Notes under the pieces: model-generated
What the model was told of the DNA's origin: nothing
Database searches by the model: none
What the model saw: only the letters and a program-made list of their open reading frames with translations
In this document: positions 11,601-14,896 of the stretch, one piece after another
Numbering within the stretch: position 1 is the stretch's first letter
How the letters are laid out: each line of letters begins with the position of its first letter
NCBI RefSeq assembly: GCF_011745365.1
Contig: NW_024468912.1
Coordinates: 558,001-622,000, forward strand
From: Cryphonectria parasitica EP155
Lineage: Eukaryota > Ascomycota > Sordariomycetes > Diaporthales > Cryphonectriaceae
Reading direction: 5' to 3'
Length of the DNA stretch: 64,000 bases
Position numbers and translations under genes: made by a program

Positions 11601-14378
11601 AAATTCAAGAAACTATTTCAGAAAAAATTAAATACAGAATTGCTAGAATACAGCCTATATAATCATAAGATCCTACTACAAGAAGGAAAACAGCTCAAAT
11701 TCTTCTTTATTTATAAACTAAATAAAGTATAATTAGAGGCACTCAGGGAGTATCTTAACAAGAATCTTAAGAAAGAATATATATAATCATTGCAATTACT
11801 AGCAGAATATCCCATCCTGTTTATATCTAAGAAGAATAGCAAGCTTAGGCTATATATTGATTATAAGCAATTCAATGATATTATAATTAAGAACTGATAC
11901 TTGTTGCTACTTATCAAGGAACTACAAGATAGGTTGCAAGAAATATAATAGTTTATAGTTCTAGATCTGAAAGAAGCTTATAATCTAATTAGAATAAAGA
12001 AAGAAGAAGAATGGAAAACTGCTTTCAGAATACGCTACAGATACTACGAATATTTGATTATGCTCTTTGATTTAATAAATATCTCAGCTTTATTTCAAGA
12101 AATAATCAATCATATTCTATGCAAGCATCTGAATCAATTCATCATTGCCTATCTCAATAACATTCTCATTTTCTCTCAAATACTGAAAGAATACAAAAAA
12201 TATATGGAAATAGTATTGTAAACACTCTAAGATGCAAAACTTCTTATAAAACCTGCAAAGAGCTATTTTCATATACAAAAGATTGACTACTTCGGATTCA
12301 TAATCAAGCCAGAATGTATTAAGCTACAGAAAGACAAAGTAGAAGCTATTAGAAATTAGCTAGTTCTTAGGAATATCAGGAATATTAGATCTTTCCTCGG
12401 ATATATCAACTTCTATAGATAGTTCATTAAGAACTATAGCTAGATTGCACATTCTCTTACAAATCTTATCAAAAAGAAGCAGCTCTTCAAATAAACCTCT
12501 AAAGCACAAGAAGCTTTTAATGAGATTATCAAGCATATTATCTCAGAGCTAATTCTATATAAAGCAGATCTTTACAAACTTTTTGAAGTTGAGATCGATG
12601 CATCAGGATATGCACTTGGAGAACAACTTAGCTAGCGAGATAACCAAGAATATCTAGAGATTGTAAGCAACTTCTTAAAGAAGTTGAATAGCTTGGAAAT
12701 TAACTACAGAATCCCTGATTAGGAATTCATAGCAATAATGAAAGCCTTTAAGGAGTAGCAATACTACCTCATTAGCATACAATACTTAATCATAGTTTAT
12801 TCAGATTATAAGAATCTAATTACATTTATAATAACTAAGATTTTGAATAAGCAATAAATTAGATAAGCAGAATTCCTCTTATAGTTCAATTTCAAGATTG
12901 TATACTGTAAAAGCTCGGAAAATGAATAAGCAGATGCTCTTAGCAGAAGATTAGATCATCGAAATATAAACTCTTCAGATATATAGAATATCTTTGCTCA
13001 AGATAAATTAGAAAATCTTATTAATGCATACAGAGAACTGAATGCTGCTTTTAGAATAGAATTCTCAGAAAGAGATTCAGAATTAATGATTCCAAACAAA
13101 CAAAACAACTATATTAAGAATGTATACAGTATACTAGCGTACAAGTATCAGAGAATCAGAGCAACTTATGAATGCATCAAAAAATACTAAAATTTACCAG
13201 ATCTTAGGAAAAGAATTGAAAGCATTCTATAACAATGCAATAGCTGTAAGAAGAATAAAGCAGAAAGATATAAGCTTTACAAACTACTGCATTTCTTATC
13301 AGTATCTATAACTATTTAGCAATTCATTAGTTTAGATTTTATTATCAAGCTATCTCTCTTATAAGAATTCTTAATTAAAGTATAATATAATAGCATTCTA
13401 GTAATGATTTGCAGACTGAGCAAGTATGCTTATTTTCTCTTTTATAAGAAAAGCAGTACAGCAGAGAAACTCGCATATGCATTCCTCAGAATGATTATTG
13501 CTAACTATAGCATGCTAGAGAAAGTAATCTCCAATAGAAACAGAAAGTTTAACTCAAAGTTTTGAACTTCGCTTATAAAACAACTCGGAATATACTACAG
13601 AATATCTACAGCATTTCATTCACAAACAAATAAACAGATGGAAAGAATGAATCAAGTTATTAAATAATACCTACAATATTATATTAACTAGGAATAGAAT
13701 AACTGGATTAATCTATTACTTCTTATATAATTTGCTTATAATAGTATAGATATAAGCATAATGAAAAAGTTATTATTCTTTACGCTCTACAAATACAACT
13801 CAACAGCTTATTATGAAGCATTGCAAGGAGCAGATGCAGAAGCTGCAGATAAAAGAGTTAAGAAGATTAAGAAAGTTTAGAAAGAATTCTAATCAGAATT
13901 ATAATTCGTTCAAGAACGAATGATGCAGTATGCAAATTCCAAAAGAATTGAGAAACTAATCCTATAGAAGGGAGATAAGGTTTATCTATTTCGAAAAAAT
14001 ATTAAAATAATCAGACCAAGCAACAAACTTAACTATAAGAAGTTAGAATTATTCAAAATCTTGCAACAGATTTCTCCAGTTAATTATGAGTTAGCATTAT
14101 CTTATGGAATGAGAATACACTCAGTTTTCCATATTTTACTATTGGAATCAGCAGTACAGGAAATATTAATAGATAATATAGCAGAAGTGGAAAACAATGA
14201 ATCAGAGTATGAGGTAGAGAAGATTCTCAAGTATAGAAGCACAGACAATACAAGAGAATATCTTATTAAATGGAAAGATTATCCAGCAAGCGAAAATTCA
14301 TGAGAACCACAGAAAAACGTTAAGAATGCTCAAAAAAGAGTAGCTAAGTATTGGAAAAGGAAGGAAACCAGTATCTAA
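8640..14378 (+). pseudogene. Degenerate gag-pol with chromodomain, chromovirus A
   Basis: The reading order is: Gag with a Gln/Ala-rich repeat (8740-8810) and an IYNSNQKMLHEF-type capsid block from 8842; a damaged zinc knuckle near 9560; and a protease active site now read as NSS near 10840. The RT active site reads YLNN instead of YLDD near 12150. RNase H, an integrase (13390-13680) and a chromodomain (about 14200-14300; EYEVEKIL, EYLIKWK, Y) follow. Many TAG/TAA/TGA codons stand where CAG, TGG or CGA are expected, the product of RIP transitions. The frame ends with TAA at 14376-14378. Only short fragments remain open, such as 14061-14303. Confidence 0.9.
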
Positions 14379-14896
14379 GATGATTGCTCCGCCTTGGAGC
14401 GAGATCCAAAAGCTTCAGAGATCTCGCTCTTCAGAAAATCTAATCAATCCATCACTGCATTCCCTACATTCACAGAATTCTAGTTAAAATCCTCAAAAGA
14501 AGAATTCCCAGCAACTACAGCAGACTTCTCTGCAACTACAGAACGAACTTCAGCAGCAATGCAAGCCCGCTCCTCTGCCTTCACTCTTTCCAACTCCTTC
14601 ACATTATCAATATCTCAACGAATAGCATGCATTATCTTTTCGTATCATATTCTTTTCTGCTTATACAGCCTAAGAAGTTTAGCATTCAGCTCAGCAGCCT
14701 TCTCTTCGATTGCTTTCATCTCTGCCTTCAGGTAGTAGTATTGAGTAGTTATATGATTTAATTGTATAGATGTTAGGCTACGAATATCGCAATTCGACAA
14801 ACTCAAATGTATGTAGGTTTGATAACGGGAAGATTCGGATTCAGCAATCTTGCACTCAGCTGAAAGATTGTGATCTTCGCAGTATGAGCAAGGCAT
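14375..14896 (-). pseudogene. Antisense six-cysteine accessory gene, chromovirus A
   Basis: The ATG at 14896 begins M-P-C. The Cys pattern is C-x2-C-x8-C-x9-Y-x2-Y-x7-C, the two Tyr being TAT/TAC codons where other copies have Cys (G-to-A). A charged, coiled-coil-like region follows, with the motif KLLRLYKQKR. One in-frame TGA at 14645 (expected CGA) breaks the frame; other stops follow. The 174-codon frame otherwise keeps phase to a TAG at 14377-14375 that overlaps the gag-pol TAA. Homologous antisense relics sit at the same place in copies C, D and E. The cysteine spacing recalls Zn(II)2Cys6 clusters, but function is unknown. Confidence 0.72.

Follow-up and report, generated by a model that had tools for sequence, protein, structure and literature searches.

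A zinc-cluster-like antisense gene, intron-bearing in some copies, in the chromoviruses of Cryphonectria parasitica: a candidate regulator of its own element

The closest described counterpart of the gene considered here is brtn of the retrotransposon Boty, reportedly the subject of Zhao et al. 2011 (Virology 417:248), as cited by others. brtn is reported as an antisense gene that lies, in Boty-like Ty3/gypsy chromoviruses from Botrytis cinerea, between pol and the 3′ long terminal repeat (LTR) (PMC7264820, PMC4227169, PMC8365987). Plant LTR retrotransposons carry, in the corresponding position, antisense genes known as aORF-3R, including gene23 of Grande and those of RIRE2, Retand (TRP28) and PvRetro13; a nuclear or DNA-binding role has been proposed for some of them, and a DNA-binding regulatory role for that of Retand. 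Antisense accessory genes are a recurrent feature of LTR retrotransposons, and a review gives their function as unknown (PMC7264820). Here, we describe an antisense gene of this kind in four decayed chromovirus copies, named A, C, D and E, which lie in a 64,000-nucleotide stretch of Cryphonectria parasitica EP155 (contig NW_024468912.1, positions 558,001 to 622,000 of the forward strand), hereafter the window. The gene is conserved as a protein in its antisense frame, encodes a predicted six-cysteine, zinc-cluster-like head and, in some copies, holds an antisense intron.

A first-pass annotation of the window had placed an antisense Zn2Cys6-like open reading frame (ORF) between the chromodomain and the 3′ LTR of the four copies, and direct reading finds the gene there in each of them. 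The stretches assigned to it are real, but its true start lies about 35 codons further upstream, as a conserved basic N-terminal extension (MSxRV...) precedes the head. The single ORF per copy gives way to two exons in different frames in C and E, with an antisense intron in C and D, and the proposed M-x-C or M-x-x-C start fails in copy C, whose first codon at 24161 is ATA and not ATG. In copy A, the gene occupies 14375..15001 on the minus strand, from a decayed MSxRV start at 15001 to the stop codon, has no intron, is interrupted by stops and includes a 141-codon open ORF; residues 1-197 of the related protein P0001 align to 15001-14378 by tblastn (E 1e-92), and 90 nt separate the gene start from the 3′ LTR. 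The other three copies, also on the minus strand, are split. Copy C has a head-bearing exon 1 at 24038..24251 (matched by P0174 and P0168 as far as 24039 and by P0175 from 24251) and, in another frame, an exon 2 with the coiled coil and tail at 23623..23981 (tblastn). The matched part of exon 1 of copy D, with the head, spans 33753..33915 (tblastn and codon audit) and its exon 2 spans 33301..33701 (matches of P0107 and P0106), while in copy E, the matched part of exon 1 lies at 41521..41721 (P0169 match and codon audit) and exon 2, in another frame, at 41078..41455, where residues 70-170 of P0156 align to 41455-41150. All four window copies have stops inside the antisense gene; they are decayed by repeat-induced point mutation (RIP), and none encodes an intact protein.

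Which strand is coding was judged from transversions, since RIP makes only transitions. Across the 30 copies of family B in the genome (the 43.8 Mb assembly of C. parasitica EP155), transversion-variable columns number 62/44/81 at codon positions 1/2/3 of the antisense frame, and 50 of the 187 are synonymous in that frame (null 0.16; 0 of 300 shuffles), against 45 of 187 in the sense frame that shares its wobble position (15 of 300 shuffles). The seven copies of the A2 set give 3/6 synonymous columns in the antisense frame (11 of 300 shuffles). A full explanation by sense-strand constraint, which the first-pass annotation had itself raised, is not borne out by a nucleotide alignment of nine copies, built so as to give no frame an advantage: of the six frames, the antisense one shows the highest conservation and a sense frame comes second, and the antisense frame leads in the 24 between-group pairs as well as in the 6 pairs within B. 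Two points temper this. The nine copies were picked partly for open antisense frames, a bias that leans in the same direction as the result, and the 23 copies of family A yield 6/19 synonymous columns in the antisense frame (8 of 300) versus 9/19 in the sense frame (1 of 300), although these numbers are small. Together with the open sense frames of 150-229 aa present in several copies, the latter result speaks for a sense-strand gene of which the antisense frame would be the shadow. This explanation is largely refuted and its residual likelihood is negligible: the sense frames fare worse in family B and in the nine-copy comparison, every match of the relatives to the window is antisense and so are the splice signals. 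The open sense frames are therefore read as shadows.

Relatives of the predicted protein are widespread. Three profile searches, the first with a profile built from natural open pieces and the later ones with profiles built from matches, returned 123, 136 and 73 proteins; the rows listed (120 of 123, 120 of 136 and 73 of 73) comprise 219 related proteins in all and include no Botrytis or Sclerotinia name. The first-pass annotation had pointed to an abundance of hypothetical proteins with a similar cysteine pattern in fungal annotations: 152 of the 219 listed bear the head, which was not seen in the other 67, and many come from other Sordariomycetes. Named sources include Pyricularia, Colletotrichum, Cordyceps, Metarhizium, Beauveria, Fusarium, Cytospora, Verticillium, Apiospora, Gaeumannomyces, Hirsutella and Thermothelomyces, among others, and many entries derive from metagenomes; outside C. 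parasitica, they are known as proteins alone, apart from where they break on the window. When the 219 proteins were compared with the window stretches by tblastn (E up to 0.01, in a database so small that E-values serve for ranking), copies A, C, D and E received 181, 260, 60 and 101 matches, respectively. Chance is excluded because all of these lie on the minus strand and four reversed control stretches received no match from the same proteins. The nearest relatives are P0001 for A, P0174 for C (3e-64), P0107 of Cytospora mali for D (3e-51) and, more weakly, P0169 for E (1e-13).

Within the C. parasitica genome, the family is abundant; the counts given here are minimum numbers for partly overlapping sets of places. 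The copy A stretch matches at least 40 places (40 scored of 219 candidates), of which 23 extend over the whole antisense gene or the greater part of it, and the stretches of C, D and E match at least 43, 42 and 40, respectively; P0002 finds at least 150 places (150 of 150 scored; 383 candidates) and P0088 at least 172 matches. Of 30 excised P0002-type loci, four, among them that of P0002 itself, show no stop inside the match, so open antisense frames do exist in this genome. As a separate observation, the remaining 17 of the 40 copy A-type matches start at query position 238 or beyond (e.g. L032-L038; window 14369-14900), the C-terminal part of the gene being common at the DNA level to subfamilies with different heads, and L025/L027 end in another tail. 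The shared C-terminal part suggests that modules may have been exchanged between element subfamilies.

The head itself was described correctly at the outset. A codon audit returns the claimed cysteine spacings, 2-8-9-2-7 in A and 2-6-8-2-6 in C, D and E, and all seven missing cysteines across the four copies are TAT/TAC codons; A retains 4/6 cysteines (14789..14890, minus strand, the other two being TAT/TAC), C 3/6, and D and E 5/6 each. Among the 152 head-bearing relatives, the spacing is 2-7-9-2-7 in 82, 2-6-8-2-6 in 47 and 2-8-9-2-7 in 3. The basic coiled-coil motif of the first-pass annotation recurs as R-[LI]-[RK]-x-Q-[KR] in 138 of the 142 head-bearing relatives of at least 150 aa. The predicted protein would begin with a basic N-terminus, continue through a zinc-cluster-like head with six cysteines and a long coiled coil, and end in an acidic tail.

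How close this head stands to fungal zinc clusters is less clear-cut. The Pfam family PF00172 (Zn_clus) has the pattern C-x2-C-x6-C-x5-12-C-x2-C-x6-8-C, to which the 2-6-8-2-6 class conforms (47/152 heads and window copies C, D and E). Its profile hidden Markov model matches 21 of the 51 proteins of alignment A5 at E<=1 (best E 0.001) and 3 of the 28 of alignment A2; six of the 73 relatives in the third profile search bear UniRef names starting Zn(2)-C6 fungal-type. The structural look-alikes listed are Zn2Cys6 domains only (e.g. HAP1 and Pho7), consistently across the family and with weak scores (best Foldseek E 5.1 and 7.7). Several results weigh against formal membership in Zn_clus: the first loop departs from the pattern in 82/152 heads (x7) and in window A (x8); the comparison with Zn_clus proposed at the outset does give matches, but the best printed score, 18.1 bits for P0145, misses the gathering cut-off of 21 bits; and the heads, when aligned by hhalign with six Zn_clus heads from C. 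parasitica, yield a signal that lies in the cysteines alone, permuted profiles scoring equally well in 16 and 18 of 100 cases (these six reference heads only). Pfam gave no Zn_clus match for the uninterrupted segment of copy A, and profile searches against PDB sequences listed 1 and 15 chains, with no fungal zinc cluster among their names. The PF00172 scan of the C. parasitica genome itself covers the best 150 of 199 candidates, down to 24 bits, a level below which lower-scoring antisense copies would not appear. The dissimilarity to Zn_clus beyond the cysteines, the sub-threshold scores and the longer first loop of the commoner spacing class would also suit a protein that is no transcriptional regulator, its head acting as a zinc-binding nucleic-acid chaperone or as an RNA-export or integration-tethering module and its coil serving assembly. 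We consider such a role unlikely, as the structural look-alikes listed are exclusively DNA-binding domains of the Zn2Cys6 type, and a coil and acidic tail behind the head reproduce the layout of Gal4-type factors, in which the head is followed by a coil and an acidic tail.

A further line of evidence is an intron on the antisense strand. Genomic copies of the P0088 type match the protein in two blocks, parted in all 12 copies cut out by an antisense-strand stretch of 57-60 nt, whose lengths cover all three residues modulo 3. The stretch starts with GTAAGT in eight copies, ATAAGT in two and GTAAAT in two, contains CTRAY 24-26 nt before its end in 12/12 and ends in YTTAG in 12/12; because TTAG was the string sought for the end, and the start was taken at a set distance, the two ends depend in part on the procedure, but the branch sites and GTAAGT starts do not. 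The window copies add separate cases, both on the minus strand. In copy C, a 56-nt intron (GTGGGT ... CTGAT ... ATAG) was located as a string at 23982..24037 between exon breaks at 24039/23982, and this is also the site at which the tblastn matches of P0174 and P0168 of Verticillium dahliae are interrupted. The 51-nt intron of copy D at 33702..33752 runs from donor ATGAGC, which a single RIP-type change separates from GTGAGC, to acceptor TTCAG, the match of P0106 starting at 33702. Copy E, with two exons in different frames, probably has an antisense intron too, and the genes of types A, A2 and B lack it and are read straight through. In the P0088 gene (G000:C2:1827132-1828162), a further gap of about 296 nt lies between a match that ends at aa 136 and one that starts at aa 134. 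In the subfamilies that have it, the intron is of the canonical fungal type. As intron signals would be reversed, and of no use, in the sense genomic RNA, the intron would imply a transcript made by RNA polymerase II from the antisense strand.

Such a transcript might also work as RNA only, as a source of double-stranded RNA or small interfering RNA with an incidental reading frame, and a 2020 review discusses antisense transcripts as double-stranded RNA sources (PMC7264820). LTR elements of B. cinerea are also reported to give rise to small RNAs. An RNA-only role is very improbable in view of the conserved cysteines, the constraint at the protein level and an intron set between two in-frame exons. 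Alternatively, the intron could be the relic of a host Zn2Cys6-like gene captured in antisense orientation and carried passively: an antisense intron cannot be spliced from the genomic RNA and would therefore outlast retrotransposition. A passenger gene would decay, however, and the constraint on the frame between groups, the relatives in many genera and the position fixed in 73 of 74 distinct copies therefore make passive capture improbable.

That fixed position emerges from searches with a chromodomain query. The chromodomain is encoded on the opposite strand in 73 of 74 distinct copies (75 of 76 entries before removal of two duplicates, L009, which is window copy A, and L068, the same place as L034), the median distance between it and where the antisense match ends (3′) being 27 nt; it is placed at a distance in L031 and L046 and has no match in L045. 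In copies A, C and E, the 3′ LTR lies beyond the antisense gene, so that the gene shares the location of brtn: it runs antisense in a fungal chromovirus, with the chromodomain on one side and the 3′ LTR on the other.

Taken together, the conserved frame, the relatives, the fixed position and the low-scoring but family-consistent structural resemblance support a Zn2Cys6-like antisense accessory gene, and its best overall explanation, to which we give a rough probability of 0.58, is that it encodes a Gal4-like regulator of its own element. An antisense promoter in or beside the 3′ LTR would drive the gene; the protein would bind zinc, dimerise through its coil, enter the nucleus, bind DNA, most likely the LTR of the element itself, and regulate element transcription much as HBZ acts on the provirus of human T-cell leukaemia virus type 1 (HTLV-1). 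The wider proposition, that a fungal chromovirus lineage encodes from a spliced antisense gene a Gal4-like counterpart of HBZ, with and without the intron across Sordariomycetes, and that many 'hypothetical' and 'Zn(2)-C6' proteins are retroelement genes, is more tentative and falls somewhat short of even odds. If true, the element carries its own transcription factor-like regulator, and a set of fungal genes named 'hypothetical' and 'Zn(2)-C6' belongs to retroelements rather than to host transcription factors. With a recognisable architecture and relatives in many fungi, the gene has a spliced, zinc-cluster-like nature that makes its role testable, and the antisense intron offers a clear strand-specific test in RNA-seq data.

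The carrier elements are Ty3/gypsy chromoviruses of C. parasitica, having an integrase, a C-terminal chromodomain and flanking LTRs, of which A, C and E each have a pair. The pol end of L039 and L063, two genomic copies that have decayed less, comprises a Tf2-1-like SH3 domain and a chromodomain (Pfam Chromo E 8e-17 and 2e-17, respectively), and the integrase-core matches score under the Pfam rve cut-off. In the window, decayed Ty3/gypsy copies occupy AT-rich parts at about 8-25 kb and 29-43 kb. Self-BLAST places the LTRs of copy A at 8115..8555 and 15092..15532 (plus strand; 441 bp, 89.3% identity), with the chromodomain-bearing pol end as an ORF at 14061..14303 (plus strand), tail to tail with the antisense gene, from which the chromodomain match is 27 nt away. 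It likewise places the plus-strand 5′ LTR of copy C at 17351..17796 (3′ partner 24341-24786) and that of copy E at 34800..35278 (3′ partner 41807-42284); copy D lacks its 5′ part, its alignment beginning only at 30710. Between A and C, 15535-17335 is an inverted part of a further family copy (inverted repeats to 35476-36998 and 18009-19543). Tandem arrays at 25869-26795 and 27140-28189, with 37 nt units and a spacing of 82/96 nt, sit between direct repeats of 214 nt that are 98% identical (25618-25831/28379-28592), and the segments repeated on either side of them, 5384-5683/25155-25454 (83%) and 5840-6139/28590-28889 (79%), look like a duplicated locus split by insertion.

Set against known systems, the gene most resembles brtn, which is reported to be likewise an extra antisense gene before the 3′ LTR of a fungal gag-pol element with a chromodomain. 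The link between an antisense accessory gene and a fungal chromovirus, which the first-pass annotation could not vouch for, had thus been described before in Boty-like elements, and this limits novelty. BRTN may belong to the same family, in which case novelty shrinks to the intron, the architecture and the spread. In the open PMC literature searched, we recognised no paper describing a fungal chromovirus with an antisense gene that is spliced or of the zinc-cluster type, nor one reporting the spread of the family; relative to that literature, the zinc-cluster architecture, the antisense intron and the family spread appear new, the kind of gene being known. The plant aORF-3R differ in their protein domains (TRP28, Smc) and hosts, and the word intron is absent from the main text of the Retand paper. 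HBZ of HTLV-1, with a dimerising coil and a regulatory role, is likewise an antisense-encoded nuclear protein of a retroelement, but it is a bZIP protein rather than a zinc cluster, and no sequence relation is claimed. From Zn2Cys6 (Gal4-type) factors, the antisense protein differs by its sub-threshold Pfam scores, by a lack of similarity beyond the cysteines and by its small size without a large regulatory region, whereas it shares with HAP1 and Pho7 the six cysteines, a predicted short helix at each CxxC and the coil that follows.
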